A stretch of 64,000 nucleotides of DNA from NCBI RefSeq assembly GCF_023736155.1, contig NZ_JAMLJJ010000001.1, positions 992,001 to 1,056,000 on the forward strand, given 5' to 3'. Both the position numbers and the translations under genes were made by a program. Of this stretch, positions 10,958 through 37,522 are shown one piece after another. Below the pieces are notes generated by a model. That model searched no databases, was not told the origin of the DNA, and saw only the letters and a list, made by a program, of their open reading frames with translations. Source of the DNA: Larsenimonas salina. Its GTDB lineage: Bacteria > Pseudomonadota > Gammaproteobacteria > Pseudomonadales > Halomonadaceae. Within the stretch, counting starts at the first letter, position 1, and each line of letters begins with the position of its first letter.

Positions 10958-11263
10958 TCAGAAAACGAGGGGAATGTGTGAGGTCATCGGGGATTTGTAG
11001 GATGCGCCACGGGCAACGTCATCGCTGTCATGAGGCATGGTCTTGACCAGATAGGCCCGGTGTACACCTGCGTGGCGAAGCGTACTGTAGACGGCGTCGA
11101 GCGAGCGAAACAGCTGGGGCTTGCCCCGGCGCTTAAGCAGGCTGCTCTCACCCTCTTCCGGGCGAAGCTCAACCTGATAAAGGTCGCTGCCCATGTGGCT
11201 GACGACGCGGACTTCACCTGAGTTCAGATGGCGGATGGCGTGTAGAAACTGCTGAAATTCCAT
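10958..11263 (-). CDS. DUF6482-like conserved small protein
   Basis: This 101-residue protein (MEFQQFLHAIRHLNSGEVRVVSHMGSDLY...) resembles the DUF6482 group of Halomonas and Pseudomonas proteins; the family assignment is from memory. It is a soluble mixed alpha/beta protein with no membrane segment and no catalytic motif. The stretch GKPQLFRSLDAVYSTLRHAGVHRAYLV suggests a small ligand- or partner-binding fold. GGAG lies upstream of the ATG. Function is unknown. The gene stands alone between hemH and the GX2H gene. Confidence 0.7.
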   Translation of the reverse strand: MEFQQFLHAIRHLNSGEVRVVSHMGSDLYQVELRPEEGESSLLKRRGKPQLFRSLDAVYSTLRHAGVHRAYLVKTMPHDSDDVARGASYKSPMTSHIPLVF

Positions 11264-11349: not shown

Positions 11350-12336
11350 TCAATTAAGCTCGCTTTCAAGGAAGGACCCCGACGCCAGCGCCACACCGAG
11401 CTCGTTCAGAACATGTTCCGGGAAAAGCTGCCAAAGCTGACGCTGACGTTCAACGCTTCGGGTTTCGATGCGCGCCCGCGTGCGTTCAAGCCAACCGGCA
11501 TCGCTCAGTCGCCCTTCTGGCAGGCACACAGTGCGCGTGAAGGCACCGGCGTGCCAGAGCATGTCGCAGTAGTTGCGGGTGTAACCCACACCCTGCCCCT
11601 TGCGGGTAAACCCGTCAAACGGCCAGCGCCCGACCGCCGGTGCATCATCCAATACGATCACCGAGCCTATCGGCCACGCTGCAGTAGCCTCCGTGTGCGT
11701 AGGCCCATCGATGACCGGCCAGAGCGTAGTGAGCTGCCTTGCCAACAGCGTGCCCATCGACGGCGCACGCGCGTCCGGAAGCGTCGATTTGATCAGGTGC
11801 ATCGCCCCGAAAATCAAGAGCGCCTTGTCATCGCGTGCCAGCACATGGCGTGTCACACAGTCAGCGTAGCGCGCATCGCGTTCGTCCATGGCCGCCTGCC
11901 AGCGCGTCTCAGTGGCGGTTTGCCAGTCGAAGGCGGCCTCCGCCAGTAGAACCCGCCACCGCTTCGAGGGTGGAAGCGTCTGATTGACGCGCCGCACGTG
12001 CTCGAAAAACTGCTGATAGACCCACGGCGACCAAAGCACACCATGCAGCGTGTCCTCACAGATCAGGCTAAGCGCGGTGTCGGAAAGGGCTTCCCCCGCC
12101 AGATATCGGTCAAGCATGCCCTGATGGCGCTCACTGCCGAACTCAACCACCACGGTCTGGGTGTGTGCCTGCACCGCTGGCGCCTCGATCAGCGCAAACA
12201 TCTGCTCAAGGACCTCAGGGCACCAGTGCATCTCGCCAACGCCGACCAAGGGCGTGCGCTGAAAGCCTGCATCGACCGCCTCGATCAGGGAACAGACGGC
12301 GGCCGCATCGATGTCAGAGGCAGGGCGTTCGCTCAT
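11350..12336 (-). CDS. Uncharacterised GX2H-motif protein (EreA/ChaN/TraB-like), partner of the NRPS
   Basis: The 328-residue protein has two GX2H motifs, GEMH at residues 34-37 and GAMH at 177-180, with a conserved-looking glutamate in VVVEFGSER (Glu65) and an acidic/basic central region. This is the layout of the EreA/ChaN/TraB (Tiki) superfamily, whose members include erythromycin esterase and iron-regulated haem-binding ChaN. The assignment is motif-based and moderate. No signal peptide is evident, so a cytoplasmic location is likely. The ATG overlaps the end of the NRPS gene by 23 bases, so the two are probably translated from one Fur-controlled mRNA. A hydrolase or product-handling role is inference. 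Confidence 0.55.
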   Translation of the reverse strand: MSERPASDIDAAAVCSLIEAVDAGFQRTPLVGVGEMHWCPEVLEQMFALIEAPAVQAHTQTVVVEFGSERHQGMLDRYLAGEALSDTALSLICEDTLHGVLWSPWVYQQFFEHVRRVNQTLPPSKRWRVLLAEAAFDWQTATETRWQAAMDERDARYADCVTRHVLARDDKALLIFGAMHLIKSTLPDARAPSMGTLLARQLTTLWPVIDGPTHTEATAAWPIGSVIVLDDAPAVGRWPFDGFTRKGQGVGYTRNYCDMLWHAGAFTRTVCLPEGRLSDAGWLERTRARIETRSVERQRQLWQLFPEHVLNELGVALASGSFLESELN

Positions 12337-15300
12337 GGCTCAAAACCTCCTCGAGACGAGCCGCGATGTGACGCGCGGCCTCGGGTTGAATCATGCCCGG
12401 ATGATCACAGGGCAGGTCGTGATTGATCAAGTCGCCCCGCACATAAGGCCGCCAGGCCAATCGATTGAGCCAGTCCTCGTCTCGGGGAGCGGCAGCGGTA
12501 AAGAACTCCACATCGCCCTCATAAACCTGATGGTGAGACTCGCGCACCAGCCGACTGTTATTGGCAACCACATCGACCATGGCATCCAGCACCCGACCTG
12601 GCAGGCTTGCGAGCGCATGCCCCTCCTGACTCAAGAGCTCGATCACATCCTGCCGGGTCGCGCCCGACTCCGGAAGTCTGAGACCTGCAATGCGCAATAG
12701 TGCCGTCAGCGCGTCCTGCTCATCCGGCGGGGCCAGATGGCGCCACTGATCGCTTGGGTAAGCGTCCAGCATCGCAAGCAAGCGCACCTCATCGCCGCGG
12801 GCCTGCAATTTAGCGGCCAACGTATGAGCGATCATGCCCCCGATCGACCAGCCAGCGAGCCAGTAAGGCCCTTCGGGCTGAACCGTCTTCAGCTGGTGAA
12901 GGTAATCCTCAGCCATCGCATCAAGCGTCAGCGGCAATGGCTCATCCACCGCAAGCCCCCGCGCCTGAAGCCCATAGATGGGGCCGAAGGACGGCAGCGC
13001 GCGCACCAGCGCGTTATAGCACCACCCCAACCCACCAGCAGGATGACACAGCACCAGCGGGGCATCACCTGTCTGCGCCTTAAGGGTCAGCAGCACCGAT
13101 AACCCATCCTGACCGGAAGCCTTTTCATAATGCGAAGCCAATGCACTGACGCTCGGCGCCTCGAACAGTGTGGCAAGGGTGATCTCCCAGCCAAGCGTTT
13201 CCCGTACGCGCACCGACAGCGCGACCGCCGTTAGGGAGTGCCCACCCAGATCAAAAAAGTTGTCATCGACCCCGACCCGTTCTAAATCGAGCGCTTCGGC
13301 GAACAAGGCACAAAGCGCACGCTCCTCCTCGCTGTCGGGCGCACGATAATGTTCGTGATCACTCAATTCCGGCATCGGCAGCGCCTTGCGATCGAGCTTG
13401 CCATTATCGGTCAGCGGCAGCGCCGATAGCGTGCAGAGGTGCTGGGGGACCATGTAGCTCGGCAACTGCGAGGCCGCCCATGCCCTAACCGCATTGGCAT
13501 CGAGCGACTGCCCGGCGTCCATGACGACGTAGGCCACAAGTCTCGGATCATTCTCTCGCGGCGAAATAACGCTGACGGCGGCCTGAGCGACGCCCGGCGC
13601 CCGAGTGATGACGTCGTTGATTTCATCGAGCTCGATGCGCTGACCGCGAAGCTTCACCTGGCCATCTAGACGCCCCATATACTCGAGCGCGCCTTCTTGA
13701 TTCCAGCGCGCGAGATCACCGGTGGCATAAAGTCGGCCAAGCTCGGAGTGCTGGATAAATCGTTCGCGCGTCAGATCCTCACGCCCGATATAGCCTCGGG
13801 CCAGATTCATGCCGCCAATGTAGAGCTCACCAGCCGCCCCAACCGGCATTGGCTGGCCGTGGTCATCGAGCACGTGAAGCTGCGTGTTCCAGATCGGCCG
13901 GCCGATCGGCAGGCTCGCCCGCATGTCTTGTGCCTTGCAGGGCCAATAGGATACGTCGATGGCCGCCTCGGTCGGGCCGTAGAGGTTATGCAACAAGACC
14001 TCAGGCAAGGCGTCATGCAGCCGAGTCTGGAGCAGCTTCGGCAGAGCCTCGCCGCTGCAAAATACCTGCCGAAGCGAAGTGCACTCAGACACCGGTGCAC
14101 TGTCTAAAAAGGCCTGCAGCATGGAGGGGACAAAGTGGAGCGTGGTAATCCGGTGCGTCTTGATGGCCTCGAGCAGATACCATGGGTCCTTGTGCCCGCC
14201 TGGGCGCGCCATCACCAGCGTGGCCCCACTCAGTACCGGCCAGAAGAACTCCCAGATCGAGACGTCGAACCCGGACGGCGTCTTTTGCAGCACCCGATCC
14301 CCTTCGTCGAGCTGATACATCGCCTGCATCCACTCGAGCCGGTTGACGATGGCCTGCTGCTCGATCATCACGCCCTTGGGCTTGCCGGTCGAGCCCGACG
14401 TGAACAGCACATAGGACAGCGCCGACGGCGAGCGCGCATCGCGACGGGGGTTATCACTGGGCTGGGCTGCGAGCGCGCCTTGACTGTCTGGCGCATCGAT
14501 AACCAGCTGCTCGACCGTTATGCCCTCGGGCAGCAGTGATCGAGTGTCTTCCGCACTGACAATCAAACGTGGCCCGGCCTGCTCGATCATATAGCCAAGG
14601 CGCGCCTTCGGATAATCACTCGACAACGGCATGAAGGCTGCACCCACCTTTTGCGTCGCAATCAGCGCCACTTCCAGCAAGGCGCCGCGCTCGAGCGCTA
14701 CACCCACGATGTCGCCCGCCCCAACGCCGTACGCGCTCAACAGGTGCGCCAGGCGGTTCGCGTCCTGATTGAGCGTTAAATAGTCGAGCGTGCCGGAGGC
14801 GCTGATCAACGCCGGCGCCTCAGGCGTGCGCAGCACCTGACGCTCGAACAGGCTTGCCAGATCAGTGGACTCTACTGGCGCTGCCGTGGCGTTCCAGTCG
14901 TCGAGGCTGGTTTGCTCACGGGTCAGTCGCCAGGGCAATTCGTGAACCGGGCGCTCTGCATGGGTCGAAAAGGTCTGCGCCCAGCGCATCAAGCGATCGA
15001 GGTGGTCGGTCATGACCGCGCGATCATAGCGGTTGGGGTTGGCCTCGACAGCCAGCTTGGCCCGCCGCCCGACCCCATCCCAGTGCAGATAGAACGAAAT
15101 ATCATGCTCGGGCCCGGCCACCAGATGATCGAGTGCCGACGTCAGGGCGTGCCAGTCGGTCGGTTGCGCAAAGGGCATGATGTTGACCTGCGGCCCGAAC
15201 AACGCCCGTTCGCCCGGGCGTCGCATGACGTCGCGCTGAAGCGCTTCGTAGCGGTAGCGCTGATGGCGCCGGATCCCGCCCATGGCCTCGCGCGCGTGGG

Positions 15301-16228
15301 CGGCCCACATGGCCGGCGTGTCGGAACGGGCCTGTGTCAGGCGAAGCGGCAACACGTTGACCTGGGTGATCGGCGTTTTCATATCGGCGCCCGTGTAGCG
15401 CCCCATCATCGGCAGTCCCAGTGTCACGTCATCGCGCTGGTTCCAGCGGCACACATACGCCCCCACCGCAGCCACGAACACCTCGGCCGGGTGCAGCGCC
15501 TGAACGTCGGCGCCGTCGATCAAGGCCTCGATGACGTCCTGGCCCAGCCAGGCCTCGATGCGGTCCGCCCGCTCGGCGGCAAGGTGCGTACGTTCGGTCA
15601 GCGTGATCGGATCGGGGTCGTCCGCGAACTGGCGCGCCCAGTACGCCCGGTCGGCCTCGCAGGCCTCGCTTGACTGGTACGTTCGGTCGCGCTTGATCAT
15701 GGCGGTGACCTCACCGAACCAGGGTGACGGCGCGTCGGTGGCCGTACACAGCGCGTTGTAGTGCTCACAGGCGCGCCTTTGGAGCAGGCTGTAGGCAAAG
15801 GCATCGGCGGCCAAGTGATGGATCACCATCAGCCACCATACTTCCGACTCCGACAGGCGAAGAACGGTAAAGCGGTAGAGTCTCGGCGTGTCGAGTTCGA
15901 TGCCATGATCAAGCTGTGCGTCGATCCAGCGCTGAGCGTACTGCCTGGGCTGCTCGACGCAGCGGAAGTCCTGCACCTCAACCTGCGGCGCGATGTGTTC
16001 AAAAAAGGCCTGGACCGGCCCATCAGCCCCCATTTGAGCCCGAGCGGTAAGCGTTGGCGCTTCCATGACTGTTCGCTCGATGGCCTCGACCAAGGCCTCG
16101 ACATCAGGCGCTCCCGTCAAGCGCAGGCACTGTGAGGTGGTGTACGTCGCGGCCGTGCCGCTCATTTGCTGCGCGAACCAGATACCTGCTTGCGCACTAC
16201 TGAGCGAATACGTGGGGGACGTGGGCAT
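12314..16228 (-). CDS. EntF-like single-module NRPS (C-A-PCP-TE), predicted serine-activating
   Basis: The 1304-residue protein has the EntF domain order. Condensation (about 7-430) carries HHLAADA at 137-143 instead of HHxxxDG. Adenylation (about 450-960) has FTSGSTGKPKG at 609-619; the specificity residues read D655, V656, W659, H698, F723, S725, L749, I757, D758, which is the serine code with Ile for Val at one position. The carrier domain holds LGGHS with Ser998. The thioesterase has GWSIG (Ser1128), Asp1155 and His1276. E. coli EntF is 1293 residues. ATG 16228 is preferred over a TTG one codon earlier because AAGGAG sits seven bases upstream. A Fur box covers the promoter. A catecholate or related siderophore is inferred, but no dihydroxybenzoate genes are nearby. 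Confidence 0.92.
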   Translation of the reverse strand: MPTSPTYSLSSAQAGIWFAQQMSGTAATYTTSQCLRLTGAPDVEALVEAIERTVMEAPTLTARAQMGADGPVQAFFEHIAPQVEVQDFRCVEQPRQYAQRWIDAQLDHGIELDTPRLYRFTVLRLSESEVWWLMVIHHLAADAFAYSLLQRRACEHYNALCTATDAPSPWFGEVTAMIKRDRTYQSSEACEADRAYWARQFADDPDPITLTERTHLAAERADRIEAWLGQDVIEALIDGADVQALHPAEVFVAAVGAYVCRWNQRDDVTLGLPMMGRYTGADMKTPITQVNVLPLRLTQARSDTPAMWAAHAREAMGGIRRHQRYRYEALQRDVMRRPGERALFGPQVNIMPFAQPTDWHALTSALDHLVAGPEHDISFYLHWDGVGRRAKLAVEANPNRYDRAVMTDHLDRLMRWAQTFSTHAERPVHELPWRLTREQTSLDDWNATAAPVESTDLASLFERQVLRTPEAPALISASGTLDYLTLNQDANRLAHLLSAYGVGAGDIVGVALERGALLEVALIATQKVGAAFMPLSSDYPKARLGYMIEQAGPRLIVSAEDTRSLLPEGITVEQLVIDAPDSQGALAAQPSDNPRRDARSPSALSYVLFTSGSTGKPKGVMIEQQAIVNRLEWMQAMYQLDEGDRVLQKTPSGFDVSIWEFFWPVLSGATLVMARPGGHKDPWYLLEAIKTHRITTLHFVPSMLQAFLDSAPVSECTSLRQVFCSGEALPKLLQTRLHDALPEVLLHNLYGPTEAAIDVSYWPCKAQDMRASLPIGRPIWNTQLHVLDDHGQPMPVGAAGELYIGGMNLARGYIGREDLTRERFIQHSELGRLYATGDLARWNQEGALEYMGRLDGQVKLRGQRIELDEINDVITRAPGVAQAAVSVISPRENDPRLVAYVVMDAGQSLDANAVRAWAASQLPSYMVPQHLCTLSALPLTDNGKLDRKALPMPELSDHEHYRAPDSEEERALCALFAEALDLERVGVDDNFFDLGGHSLTAVALSVRVRETLGWEITLATLFEAPSVSALASHYEKASGQDGLSVLLTLKAQTGDAPLVLCHPAGGLGWCYNALVRALPSFGPIYGLQARGLAVDEPLPLTLDAMAEDYLHQLKTVQPEGPYWLAGWSIGGMIAHTLAAKLQARGDEVRLLAMLDAYPSDQWRHLAPPDEQDALTALLRIAGLRLPESGATRQDVIELLSQEGHALASLPGRVLDAMVDVVANNSRLVRESHHQVYEGDVEFFTAAAPRDEDWLNRLAWRPYVRGDLINHDLPCDHPGMIQPEAARHIAARLEEVLSHERTPCL

Positions 16229-16263
16229 CAAGGCACTCCTTGGAGAATCGGATCATGACACAA

Positions 16264-16280
16264 ATGATAATAGTTATCAT
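16264..16280 (-). promoter_or_regulatory. Fur box upstream of the NRPS operon
   Basis: A perfect inverted repeat, ATGATAA-TAG-TTATCAT, sits 36 bases upstream of the NRPS start. Its core, TGATAATAGTTATCA, differs from the 7-1-7 Fur consensus TGATAATNATTATCA at one position. It lies between and over the predicted -35 and -10 elements, so Fur-Fe2+ binding would block RNA polymerase. Repression by iron is inferred from this placement and from the siderophore-like gene it controls. Confidence 0.82.
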
Positions 16281-16291
16281 AATCAATTCAA
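16264..16291 (-). promoter_or_regulatory. Predicted sigma-70 promoter of the NRPS operon
   Basis: On the minus strand TTGAAT (16291-16286) is followed after 16 bases by TATCAT (16269-16264), a 5/6 match to the -10 consensus. Transcription would start near 16257, leaving a leader of about 29 bases that includes the AAGGAG ribosome-binding site. The Fur palindrome occupies the spacer and the -10 element. Confidence 0.6.
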
Positions 16292-33583: not shown

Positions 33584-36500
33584 ATGTTTCAAGGCTGGCT
33601 ACTGATTGCCGCATCACTGACTTACATCGCGCTGCTGTTCGGAATCGCCTGGCTTGGCGATCGCCGCGCGGTGCAACAGGGCGCGGCCAAGCGCCGCCCG
33701 ATCGTCTACAGTCTTGCCCTTGCGGTGTACTGCACGTCCTGGACGTTCTATGGCAGCGTCGGCCAGGCCGCGACCCAGGGGTGGTCCTACGCCAGCATTT
33801 TCATTGGCCCGATCCTGACGTTCGTGCTGTTCTGGCCGGTGCTTGCCAAGATGATCCGCGTTGCCAAGCGCCAGAACGTAACATCGATCGCCGACTTTAT
33901 CGCCTCACGTTACGGCAAGTCTCAGGAGCTTGCCGCATTTACAAGCGTTGTGGTTCTGATCGGCACCCTGCCCTACATCGCGCTTCAGCTAAAGGCAATG
34001 TCCTCGAGCCTCACCCTTCTGACCGACAATGCCGACATCCTGCACTCGCCGCTGTTCGGCGATACCGCGTTCTACATCGCCATGTTGATGGCAATTTTCG
34101 CCATCTTGTTCGGTACACGACATACCGACGCGACCGAGCACCATGAAGGCTTGATTCAGGCCATCGCGTTCGAGTCGGTGATCAAGCTGGCGGCCTTTTT
34201 GTTGCTCGGCGCCGTCATCACCTGGGGTACCTTCGACGGGCTTGGAGATCTATCGCGCCGGGCAAGCGAGCTTCTGCAGATCAAAAGCCTCGGCACTCAG
34301 GAATCCTCCCACGGTTTCTGGACACAGACCCTTCTGGCCATGCTCGCGATGTTCTGCGTGCCTCGCCAGTTTCACGTCACGGTGGTCGAAAACACCCACC
34401 CAGACGACAGCCGGCATGCCCGCTGGCTGTTCCCGCTGTACCTTGCGCTGGCGGGCTTTTTCGTCCTCCCCCTGGCCACCGCCGGCCTGAGTCTGCTTCC
34501 GGCCGGCAGCACCCCTGACAGCTTTGTCCTGCTGCTGCCGATGGCGCTCGACAATGATCTGCTGACGTTTCTGACGTTCATCGGAGGGTTCGCCGCCGCC
34601 AGCGGCATGGTCATCATGGCCGGCGTAACGCTTGCCATCATGATCTCAAACGAAGTACTGATCCCGCTTCTGTTGAAGCTGCACTGGTTCGACGCCCACC
34701 ACGGCGATTACGCCAAATGGGTCCTTAGAACGCGCCGCGTCGTCATCGTTCTGGTTCTGGCGCTCGCCTACGGCTTTTATCGACTGGTTGCCGAGTTCAG
34801 CACCCTTTCAAGCATTGGCATGCTGTCACTGGCCGCGCTTGCCCAGCTGGCCCCGGCACTGCTTGGCGGGCTTTACTGGAAGAAAGGCAATCGTTTCGGC
34901 GCCTCGGTCGGGCTTGGTGCCGGCATCGCCATCTGGGCCTACACGCTGCTCCTGCCCGCGCTTAATCGTGCGAATCTGGTCCCGACCGGCATCATGGAAC
35001 ACGGCCCGTTCGGCGTTGCGTTTCTCGCGCCGGGCCATCTGTTTGGCTTCTCGGTCGGTGATCCATTGACTCAGGGCGTGATGCTCTCGCTTGGCGTCAA
35101 CCTGTTCTGCTACATCTTTTTCTCTCAGTCCAGCAGCGAGCGCGTGGTGGATCGGATTCAGGCCTCGCAGTTCGTCGACAGCTCAGGCCACCCCTATGCG
35201 TCGGTCAATCGTCCCTGGCAGGGCCAGACCACGATCGGGGACTTGAAAACCCTGTGCAAACGCTTCTTGAGCGACGAACAGGTCGAGCGCGCGTTTCGCG
35301 ACTATCACAAGAACCGCCCCCCGATCAGCCCCAACGACCGCGCGTCGATCGACATGATTCAATTCAGCGAGCGCCTGCTCTCCTCGGCCATCGGCGCCTC
35401 CTCGGCGCGCATCGTCATCAACTCGGGGCTCTCGGGCCGGGAAATCGCCATTTCGGATGTGGTCTCCATCGTCGATGAAGCCTCTCAGGTGCTCGAGTTC
35501 AACCGCGCGCTGCTGCAGGCCGCGATCGAGAACTTCCATCAGGGCGTCATGGTGGTGGATCACCGTCTGCGCCTGGTGGTCTGGAACCAGTATTACCTGG
35601 AGCTGTTCGGTTTTCCCGACAACATGATTCGCGTCGGCGCACCGATCGATCAGGTCTTTCGCTACAACGCCGAACATAACGAATACGGCCCCGGTGACCC
35701 GGAAGAGCACGTCAACCTCTTGATCGATAACATCAAATCGGGCCAGCCACACCACTATCAGCGCTATCGCCCAAACGGCACGGTACTGGACGTTCACGGC
35801 AACCCGATGGCGGGCGGCGGGTTTGTGTATACCTATCAGGACATCACCCAGCAAAAGCGCACGGAAGAGGCGCTGATTCGCTCGGAAAACAACATCCGCA
35901 TCTACACCGACAACGTCCCGGCACTGATCGCCTACTTCGACCGGGAGTGTCGTTTCCTGTTTGCCAACCACGCCTATGAAGAGGCCATGAACGTCGACCG
36001 TGCCTCGGTGATCGGCAAGCGTGCCGAGGACGTGATGACACGCAGCGACTGGCGCGAACGCGCGCCCTGGATGCTGCGGGCCCTTGCCGGTGAGCGCGTT
36101 TCCTACGAGCTTTCGATGACTGATGATGAAGGCGGTACGCGCTACATGCTTGCCACCTATACGCCACACCACGGCGATCAACAGCGCGTACTGGGTTTGT
36201 TCGCCCTGTATCAGGACATCACCGAGCGCCGTCTTGCCGAAATCGCCCTCAAGGAAACCAACGAAAACCTGGAAGAACGCGTCAAGGAACGCACCCAGGC
36301 GCTTTCTCAGGTCAACGAAGCGCTTCGCCAGGAAAACAAGGTGCGCGCCGAAGCCGAGCGCGCGCTTCGCCACGCCAAGCAGATCGCCGAGGACGCCAAC
36401 GCGTCGAAAACTCGCTTTCTGGCCGCGGCAAGTCATGACCTTCTGCAACCGCTCAACGCAGCCCGCCTCTTCACCTCCGCACTGACGCAGCAGATGGACG

Positions 36501-37522
36501 ATCAGGGCGGTCAGAAACAGACCCTGACCCACATCGACAACTCATTGCAGGCCGCCGAGGAACTGCTCAGTACCCTGCTCGATATCTCCAAGCTCGACGC
36601 AGGCGCCCTGACCCCCAAACGCTCGGTGTTCCGACTCAAGGACATCTTCGCGCCGCTGCAGGCCGAGTTCGAAGTCATGGCCTCCGAGCGCGGCCTCGAT
36701 CTGAGCGTGGTCACGCCGCACCACTTCGTGGACAGTGATCCGCAGATGCTGCGTCGTATCGTTCAGAATTTCCTGTCCAACGCGCTGCGCTACACCCAGG
36801 AAGGCCGGGTGCTGTTGGGGTGCCGTCGCCGGGGCGAACACCTGGTCATTGAGGTGTGGGATACCGGCCCTGGCATCCCTGAATCCAAGCAAAGCGAAAT
36901 CTTTCAGGAGTTTCAGCGACTCGATCAGAAATCACGTCACCGCGAAAGCGAAAAAGGCCTCGGCCTGGGGCTCTCGATTGCCGACCGCATGGCGCGAGTG
37001 CTCGATCACTCGATTCGCATTCGTTCATGGGTCGACCGGGGCAGCGTATTCTCGGTCGAGGTACCGATCGGTCAGGGAAAAACAGGGGATACTCGAGCCG
37101 AAGCCTCACTGGCGCGCGCCAAGCCCGCCAACAAGTTAAGCGGCGCTCGTGTGCTTTGCATCGACAACGAAACGCTGACGCTTGAAGGCATGAAGGCGAT
37201 CCTTACCGGCTGGAACATCGAGGTCTATACGGCCACCAGCATCGGCGGCGCCAAGTCGGTCCTTAGAAATCTCAGCTCGCCTCCCGATGCAATTCTTGCC
37301 GATTACCACCTCGATAACGAAGTGACTGGCCTGATGGCGCTCGATGTACTGCTCGAGGGCATCGAGCAGGAGGTGCCCGGCATCGTCATTACCGCCGACC
37401 GTACCGAAGAGGTGGCCGACGAGGTCAAAAAGGCCGGGTTCCATATGCTCAACAAACCGGTTAAACCCGCCGCTCTTCGAGCACTTCTGACCCGAGCACT
37501 CCAGGCCAGCCGGTCACGCTAG
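33584..37522 (+). CDS. crbS: CrbS-type hybrid sensor kinase with SSS transporter domain
   Basis: The 1312-residue inner-membrane protein fuses a sodium:solute-symporter-like domain (about 1-520, some 13 helices) to a hybrid kinase. Two PAS domains (about 640-755 and 765-880) and a coiled coil (880-935) precede the HisKA domain with phospho-His951 (AAASHDLLQPLNA). The ATPase domain carries Asn1066, DTGPGIPE (Asp1093) and GLGLGL (1125-1130). The C-terminal receiver has Asp1240 and Lys1291. This is the CrbS architecture; CrbS/CrbR controls acetyl-CoA synthetase in Vibrio and Pseudomonas, and both crbR and acs lie just downstream here, which strengthens the call. GGGAGAGG precedes the ATG. The transported or sensed ligand is unproven. 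Confidence 0.9.
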   Translation: MFQGWLLIAASLTYIALLFGIAWLGDRRAVQQGAAKRRPIVYSLALAVYCTSWTFYGSVGQAATQGWSYASIFIGPILTFVLFWPVLAKMIRVAKRQNVTSIADFIASRYGKSQELAAFTSVVVLIGTLPYIALQLKAMSSSLTLLTDNADILHSPLFGDTAFYIAMLMAIFAILFGTRHTDATEHHEGLIQAIAFESVIKLAAFLLLGAVITWGTFDGLGDLSRRASELLQIKSLGTQESSHGFWTQTLLAMLAMFCVPRQFHVTVVENTHPDDSRHARWLFPLYLALAGFFVLPLATAGLSLLPAGSTPDSFVLLLPMALDNDLLTFLTFIGGFAAASGMVIMAGVTLAIMISNEVLIPLLLKLHWFDAHHGDYAKWVLRTRRVVIVLVLALAYGFYRLVAEFSTLSSIGMLSLAALAQLAPALLGGLYWKKGNRFGASVGLGAGIAIWAYTLLLPALNRANLVPTGIMEHGPFGVAFLAPGHLFGFSVGDPLTQGVMLSLGVNLFCYIFFSQSSSERVVDRIQASQFVDSSGHPYASVNRPWQGQTTIGDLKTLCKRFLSDEQVERAFRDYHKNRPPISPNDRASIDMIQFSERLLSSAIGASSARIVINSGLSGREIAISDVVSIVDEASQVLEFNRALLQAAIENFHQGVMVVDHRLRLVVWNQYYLELFGFPDNMIRVGAPIDQVFRYNAEHNEYGPGDPEEHVNLLIDNIKSGQPHHYQRYRPNGTVLDVHGNPMAGGGFVYTYQDITQQKRTEEALIRSENNIRIYTDNVPALIAYFDRECRFLFANHAYEEAMNVDRASVIGKRAEDVMTRSDWRERAPWMLRALAGERVSYELSMTDDEGGTRYMLATYTPHHGDQQRVLGLFALYQDITERRLAEIALKETNENLEERVKERTQALSQVNEALRQENKVRAEAERALRHAKQIAEDANASKTRFLAAASHDLLQPLNAARLFTSALTQQMDDQGGQKQTLTHIDNSLQAAEELLSTLLDISKLDAGALTPKRSVFRLKDIFAPLQAEFEVMASERGLDLSVVTPHHFVDSDPQMLRRIVQNFLSNALRYTQEGRVLLGCRRRGEHLVIEVWDTGPGIPESKQSEIFQEFQRLDQKSRHRESEKGLGLGLSIADRMARVLDHSIRIRSWVDRGSVFSVEVPIGQGKTGDTRAEASLARAKPANKLSGARVLCIDNETLTLEGMKAILTGWNIEVYTATSIGGAKSVLRNLSSPPDAILADYHLDNEVTGLMALDVLLEGIEQEVPGIVITADRTEEVADEVKKAGFHMLNKPVKPAALRALLTRALQASRSR

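Follow-up and report, generated by a model that had tools for sequence, protein, structure and literature searches.

The ferric enterobactin esterase of Escherichia coli is Fes, a protein unrelated to the ChaN-like protein described here. To our knowledge, Fes, PfeE, IroD, IroE and BesA are all alpha/beta hydrolases. Esterases of the IroE/PfeE type act in the periplasm. On the side of synthesis, MbtH is a cofactor of A-domains, while type II thioesterases and EntH clear wrong or stalled acyl groups from carrier domains. Excerpts of PMC11965169 name the same five esterases for catechol siderophores, give Fes and PfeE as examples of those that open Fe-enterobactin, and state that reduction often comes after hydrolysis. 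Kushneria konosiri JCM16805 makes enterobactin together with the linear dimer and trimer, as demonstrated by isotope labelling and mass spectrometry; enterobactin is induced by iron limitation in this organism, and a distance of over 500 kb separates entF from the dhb operon (PMC13251462, 2026, excerpts). No mention of the gene downstream of entF was found in the excerpts of that paper.

A 2His/2Glu motif is required for catalysis in a TIKI protease, and H85 and E113 are named as the His-Glu pair of Bcr135 (PMC6254334, excerpts). Among the publications listed in our literature searches, we found none that links a ChaN- or Ere-type protein to the use of siderophores; the presence in two graspetide loci of an erythromycin-esterase homologue, described there as unclear in function, is a weak parallel only (PMC8939145, excerpts). 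A "DUF399" lipase considered as a relative of ChaN was rejected, since the family is given as DUF3996 in the excerpted text (PMC8409650). In the window, by which we mean the whole stretch of 64,000 nucleotides of Larsenimonas salina DNA that was analysed, the gene of a ChaN-like protein, P0001, overlaps the end of an EntF-type NRPS gene.

Results

The ChaN-like gene and its partner NRPS

The features of the gene pair are as follows.

11350..12336, minus strand: P0001, a ChaN/Ere (TIKI) superfamily protein of 328 aa, proposed as an enterobactin-system hydrolase (ORF and translation, family alignment, profile tests)
12314..12336, minus strand: overlap of 23 bases between the NRPS gene end and the ChaN-like gene start (sequence)
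12346..12352, minus strand: GAGGAGG, which probably serves the ChaN-like gene as ribosome-binding site, within the end of the NRPS gene (sequence)
12314..16231, minus strand: EntF-type NRPS, C-A-T-TE, with serine code DVWHFSLIDK and TE triad S/D/H (Pfam domains, alignment with E. coli EntF)

P0001 runs on the minus strand from an ATG at 12336 to a stop at 11350 and is present in one copy in the L. salina genome. A reading made from the sequence alone (hereafter, the sequence-only reading) had coupled it to a thioesterase-bearing NRPS, and this coupling is supported by the overlap of 23 bases, by the C-terminal thioesterase domain of the NRPS (PF00975) and by the same pairing in 18/18 EntF-linked relatives. 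The overlap measures 4-23 bases in 17 of the 18 pairs; the start codon of the remaining pair (L035) is ambiguous. The closest relative found is the copy of Larsenimonas suaedae, at 92% identity. Between these two species dN/dS is 0.25 for P0001, 0.09 for the NRPS and 0.03 for hemH, showing that P0001 is under purifying selection and evolves faster than its neighbours.

The partner NRPS, of 1305 aa, starts with a TTG at 16231 or an ATG one codon later. Its A-domain code, DVWHFSLIDK, is shared with L. suaedae and L025; in 13 other partner NRPSs the code is DVWHFSLVDK, identical to that of EntF, and in L039/L040 it is DVWHMSLVDK. The Ser/Asp/His positions of the TE are kept in 18/18 partner NRPSs when these are aligned with E. 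coli EntF (the code positions and the EntF triad numbering are presumed). NCBIfam ranks EntF first, although the PRK10252 score of 805.5 bits is far under the equivalog cut-off of 2400. By domain order (C-A-T-TE, as in EntF), serine code and TE triad, the partner NRPS is of the serine-specific EntF type, and the context is therefore that of enterobactin, which was absent from the sequence-only reading.

Link to enterobactin synthesis

EntE-grade matches, defined as those above a line of 600 bits that we set ourselves with at most five candidates scored per genome, occur in 26/275 genomes of the same family, including 15/15 of those with the pair (Fisher p 4e-18, a value that ignores kinship). 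They score 614 to 854 bits, and the remaining genomes reach at most 369 bits among the matches listed. Relative to the curated EntE cut-off of 723.55, 7/26 lie above and 19/26 below, the L. salina match (707.5 bits) being among the latter. Two genomes of genus g10 that lack the pair (G125 and G127) have no EntE. L. salina carries entC-entE-entB-SIP-entA and a TonB receptor apart from the pair, on contig C12 (SIP and receptor assigned by Pfam, ent genes by BLAST), and SIP, the flavin siderophore reductase, was recognised in 6/7 ent loci fetched from pair genomes. K. konosiri (G122) is itself among the pair genomes, with about 540 kb from the pair to entE.

The pair adjoins ent genes in six genomes (G117, G118, G005, G423, G344 and G913). 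In family f35 the order at L039 is entC-entE-entB-entF-[MbtH+ChaN-like]-four ABC uptake genes-PPTase-TonB receptor-entA, where entC, entE and entA are above NCBIfam cut-offs and entB and the ABC genes were named by eye; L040 has the same gene content by BLAST. In these 2/18 an MbtH-like domain (PF03621) is fused N-terminally to the ChaN-like domain, directly after entF (L039 8740-10128, E 2e-7; L040 8854-10323, E 5e-10). None of the 15 Halomonadaceae genomes with the pair gave an MbtH match. Judged by this linkage, it is nearly certain that the ChaN-like protein belongs to the enterobactin system.

Distribution and phylogeny

The EntF and ChaN-like pair was found in 18 genomes of three families: 15 Halomonadaceae of five genera, two members of f35 and a single one of f204 (in this count the contig-identical L001 stands for G130). 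Searches with P0001 and its family gave matches in 16/275 same-family, 9/390 same-order, 3/369 same-class and 4/398 same-phylum genomes; these four samples overlap and amount to 23 different genomes. The five matches outside the pair set are G145, G1086, G565, G575 and G624. Three of them (G565, G575, G624) are stand-alone relatives, and the G145 match (7.5e-5) was discarded as spurious, since it holds two internal stops. The same-phylum matches comprise three Halomonadaceae already counted and the weak partial match of G1086 (E 4e-4). In f204 a match was seen in just 1/27 genomes (G913), which suggests that this copy arrived by horizontal transfer.

In the tree, pair and stand-alone members are split from ChaN by a 100/100 branch. 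The pair members do not form one clade; four stand-alone relatives branch among them and their kin in the family tree, where the stand-alone L043 is grouped with the copy of G913. The stand-alone loci L041, L042 (two neighbouring copies) and L043 have no siderophore genes recognised nearby, and some of their N-termini are signal-like. Remote stand-alone relatives annotated as hypothetical, with no NRPS alongside, lie on plasmids of Agrobacterium vitis and Paraburkholderia (L138 9911-10906, L139 9992-10993). In the plasmid collection the P0001 query recovered three remote relatives (the contexts of two were viewed), the G913 copy recovered two of these records, and the G117 copy gave no relative. 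A scan of IMG/VR with the family alignment returned 34 pattern matches and zero relatives. Gene calls in the fetched loci are a greedy choice of longest ORFs, which hid, for example, EntE in L078 and DnaB in L031.

Relation to ChaN, Ere and TraB proteins

The sequence-only reading had suggested the EreA/ChaN/TraB superfamily, and this placement is supported: PF04187 (ChaN) is the top Pfam match, and profile-profile and PDB-profile comparisons agree with it. In direct profile searches the relation to ChaN is present but weak, and all three families remain below their gathering cut-offs. For P0001, PF04187 gives E 8.6e-4 and 19.8 bits against a gathering score of 27.7; it is weakly matched by 13/18 relatives, with a best E of 1.5e-4 (22.3 bits, below gathering). 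Counting matches at E up to 0.5 among the 18 relatives, PF05139 (erythromycin esterase) is seen in 3/18, under its gathering cut-off with a best E of 0.15, and PF01963 (TraB/PrgY/GumN) in 2/18 with a best E of 0.12, P0001 scoring 12.7 bits against 26.8. No NCBIfam family was found for P0001 up to E 1, phmmer against the PDB gave zero matches up to E 10, and a profile built from only the 18 pair members gave three chance-level PDB matches, none of the superfamily.

True ChaN sequences were taken from 16/76 order-level genomes above the cut-off, of which 14/16 loci were used; L125 and L130 fell below the similarity cut, and L128 and L131 are in the 14-row set but outside alignment A3. The 18-row family profile matches the 14-row ChaN profile with E 4.8e-5 and a probability of 68%, and addition of the four stand-alone relatives brings this to E 1.9e-7 and 94%. 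A 12-row family profile (eight pair and four stand-alone members) matches a 12-row ChaN profile with E 9.7e-8. As controls, one reversal and five column shuffles of the profile, together with four ent families that are unrelated, gave E 0.036-0.63. The 12-row family profile also matches 2RAD/3B55, a structure of the Ere type (E 0.0026; H37 is aligned with H85, and E65 with E113), and the 12-row true ChaN profile matches the ChaN structure 2G5G (E 5e-42). These comparisons give good support to P0001 as a divergent relative within the ChaN/Ere/TraB (TIKI) superfamily.

The core of ChaN (PF04187, 2G5G) aligns with that of P0001, and E35, H37, E65, Q72, G177 and H180 are present in nearly all rows. 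However, ChaN is a haem-binding lipoprotein of the Tiki superfamily, whereas P0001 has no lipoprotein signal by eye and scores below the Pfam gathering line; R115, R128, E133 and R268 are invariant in the P0001 family and unconserved in ChaN; and the partner of the P0001 family is EntF, unlike that of ChaN. Bcr135/Bcr136 (3B55/2RAD) share with P0001 the aligned His-Glu pair at identical His-to-Glu spacing. They differ in having ExxH where the P0001 family has ExH, and PF05139 reaches only E >= 0.15 in 3/18 members.

Conservation of the 2His/2Glu motif

The codons of the motif are placed as follows.

12226..12234, minus strand: codons of E35-M36-H37, the first half of the 2His/2Glu motif (E35 and H37 invariant 18/18)
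12142..12144, minus strand: codon of E65, 28 residues past H37 as in Bcr135 H85/E113 (alignment, invariant 18/18)
11797..11799, minus strand: codon of H180, the second GxxH (invariant 18/18)

The GxxH motifs lie where they had been placed at first reading, as G34-E35-M36-H37 and G177-A178-M179-H180, and E65 was also correctly named. Two GxxH motifs per protein are by themselves not rare; what counts is their conservation. In the alignment, E35, H37, E65, G177 and H180 are invariant across 18/18 EntF-linked relatives, while G34 is replaced by Ser in 2/18. All four motif positions are among the 20 invariant of 328, for which the hypergeometric value of 1.0e-5 is optimistic because invariant positions cluster. 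At the E35 position 4/4 stand-alone relatives carry Asp. True ChaN keeps all four residues (E35, H37, E65, H180) in 13/14 rows, and the motif is therefore no proof of an esterase. An AlphaFold run given only P0001 and the L. suaedae copy returned a mean pLDDT of 38.7. From the alignments, P0001 would adopt the superfamily fold with its parallel beta-sheet core, and E35, H37, E65 and H180 would share one pocket.

Fes and PF00756 esterases in related genomes

Fes is composed of PF11806 and PF00756, both of which are matched by E. coli Fes, whereas P0001 matches neither (Pfam Enterochelin_N and PF00756, E up to 10). The Fes N-domain was found in 0/18 pair genomes and in 3/13 other genomes tested; these three (G274, G191, G161) are among the 11 EntE-positive Halomonadaceae without the pair. 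Esterases of the IroE/PfeE type, a PF00756 family distinct from that of P0001, are encoded in the ent clusters of G008, G172 and G183, three related genomes without the ChaN-like gene; each of these has an EntF-like serine NRPS with TE, and its PF00756 esterase lies no further than about 10 kb from entE. The names IroE and PfeE as used for these esterases are our own labels, not database results. In G008 the NRPS lies in two overlapping ORFs, perhaps through a frameshift, and the esterase match holds one stop, with an open frame of 290 aa covering the match. The other eight EntE-positive genomes without the pair comprise six with longer or split NRPS ORFs and two (G048, G274) with no NRPS in 20 kb. 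Thus, the EntF-type systems recognised in Halomonadaceae are 15 with a ChaN-like gene after entF and three with a PF00756 esterase in the cluster.

We had considered that the pair genomes might lack any other siderophore esterase. This reading was dropped, as a PF00756 esterase of the G183 type was matched elsewhere in 14/18 pair genomes (best E 2e-45 to 2e-10); no such match was found in G119, G423, G344 and G913. PF00756 as a whole is matched in 18/18, above cut-off in 17, the strongest match being what we take to be S-formylglutathione hydrolase. In K. konosiri (L175) one PF00756 protein begins in a twin-arginine-like manner, and its neighbour is a 763-aa ORF, TonB-receptor-like by eye; and L. 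salina has two PF00756 candidates (L110, L176) with exported-type N-termini by eye, so that Fe-enterobactin could be opened in these organisms without the ChaN-like protein.

Two further observations were made around such genes. In G125, locus L115 (7750-12777) holds a TonB-receptor-like gene, a PF00756 esterase and ABC uptake genes with no EntE-grade match, and resembles a cassette for the uptake and use of catechol siderophores made by others. A secreted protein, YncE-like beta-propeller by eye, is found repeatedly in the vicinity of genes for catechol siderophores, receptor-like proteins or PF00756 esterases (L037 1383-2612, L085 5654-6940, L086 13510-14790, L175 12783-13916, L176 8295-9455).

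Regulation and cell location

The candidate control site of the pair is the following.

16266..16284, minus strand: Fur-box-like site, 16/19 to consensus, upstream of the NRPS (consensus scoring)

The consensus used is a presumed one. When the mononucleotides of the 300 bases upstream were shuffled 200 times, no shuffle scored as well. The scan covered the 15 loci other than L039, L040 and L114; scores elsewhere are 16 in L001 and L025 (about 290 bases upstream), 15 in L026 and 14 in L035-L037, and the site is weak (11-13/19) in eight genus-g10 loci, that of K. konosiri included. In L. salina the ent TonB receptor has a 16/19 site, and the stretches upstream of entC, hemH and dnaB reach 13, 12 and 10.

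Most family members start without a signal by eye. The G913 copy (L114 10123-11190, the same as L044 1357-2424), whose ATG overlaps the EntF stop, has a Tat-like start by eye and would act in the periplasm. The f35 copies, with their MbtH domain, are probably cytoplasmic. A siderophore, being present in both compartments, would fit this mix of cytoplasmic and Tat-like members better than would the NRPS as substrate.

Discussion

Among the roles put forward by the sequence-only reading (product cleavage, cyclisation control, iron or haem binding), siderophore cleavage is the best supported. The likeness to Fes extends to gene order, since Fes also sits beside MbtH and entF (fes-ybdZ-entF in E. 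coli), and the reaction is one that we propose they share. We consider that P0001 most likely hydrolyses the serine trilactone ester backbone of (ferri-)enterobactin in place of Fes, a reading that we hold to have about an even chance of being right. In this scheme, low iron would lift Fur repression, and EntF and the ChaN-like protein would be produced from one message. With DHB supplied by EntC/E/B/A encoded elsewhere in the genome, EntF would build cyclic (DHB-Ser)3, which would be exported, bind iron and be taken up again. The ChaN-like protein, presumably acting in the cytoplasm in most members, would then open the lactone with water activated by its H37/E65 pair together with E35 and H180, and the SIP of the ent operon would reduce the iron of the linear product.

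We further propose, tentatively and with slightly less than even confidence, that this is a second type of enterobactin esterase, of separate evolutionary origin: a TIKI-fold 2His/2Glu hydrolase that is translationally welded to EntF, joined to MbtH in one lineage, and replacing Fes in Kushneria, Larsenimonas and relatives. If true, a ChaN/Ere-fold esterase would be a new enzyme type among catechol-siderophore esterases; it would suggest a route of iron recovery from enterobactin in Kushneria and its kin; and the ChaN family, which Pfam characterises through its binding of haem, would gain a testable chemical activity.

It seems unlikely, though it is the alternative that we take most seriously, that P0001 serves EntF during synthesis, either as an editing hydrolase that frees the carrier domains of incorrect or stalled acyl groups or as an accessory of the A-domain. 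Such a role would agree with the overlap with entF of 4-23 bases in 17/18 pairs, with the MbtH domain fused in 2/18 and with MbtH being unmatched in the 15/15 Halomonadaceae pair genomes. However, E. coli Fes is also beside ybdZ-entF, so that this position fits an esterase equally well; the Tat-like start of L044/L114 would take that relative out of the cytoplasm; and the three EntF-type clusters without the ChaN-like gene carry a PF00756 esterase.

Hydrolysis of enterobactin is also to be weighed against a role in which P0001 handles iron or haem as ChaN does, binding haem or the iron released from the siderophore and passing it on without hydrolysis. The closest Pfam family is indeed ChaN, described by Pfam as haem-binding and having the same four residues, and the ferrochelatase gene hemH lies two genes downstream of P0001 and near the pair in 12/15 Halomonadaceae loci. 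We regard this role as improbable, as the hemH link is local, no hemH having been found in the surroundings of the pair (about 19-20 kb each) in G117, G118, G005, G423, G344 and G913, and P0001 lacks a lipoprotein signal by eye. A function in producer protection or on another substrate, with entF associated by linkage only, would suit the stand-alone relatives of L041-L043 and of the Agrobacterium and Paraburkholderia plasmids, which have no recognised siderophore genes nearby, but is very improbable given that the pairing recurs in different gene neighbourhoods and three taxonomic families.

Regarding the remaining neighbours, a 101-aa ORF lies between the pair and hemH on the minus strand (window 10958-11263) and is present in 8/11 other hemH-near loci at 40-99% identity. 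Elsewhere in the window, the plus strand holds a 1312-aa ORF at 33584-37522.
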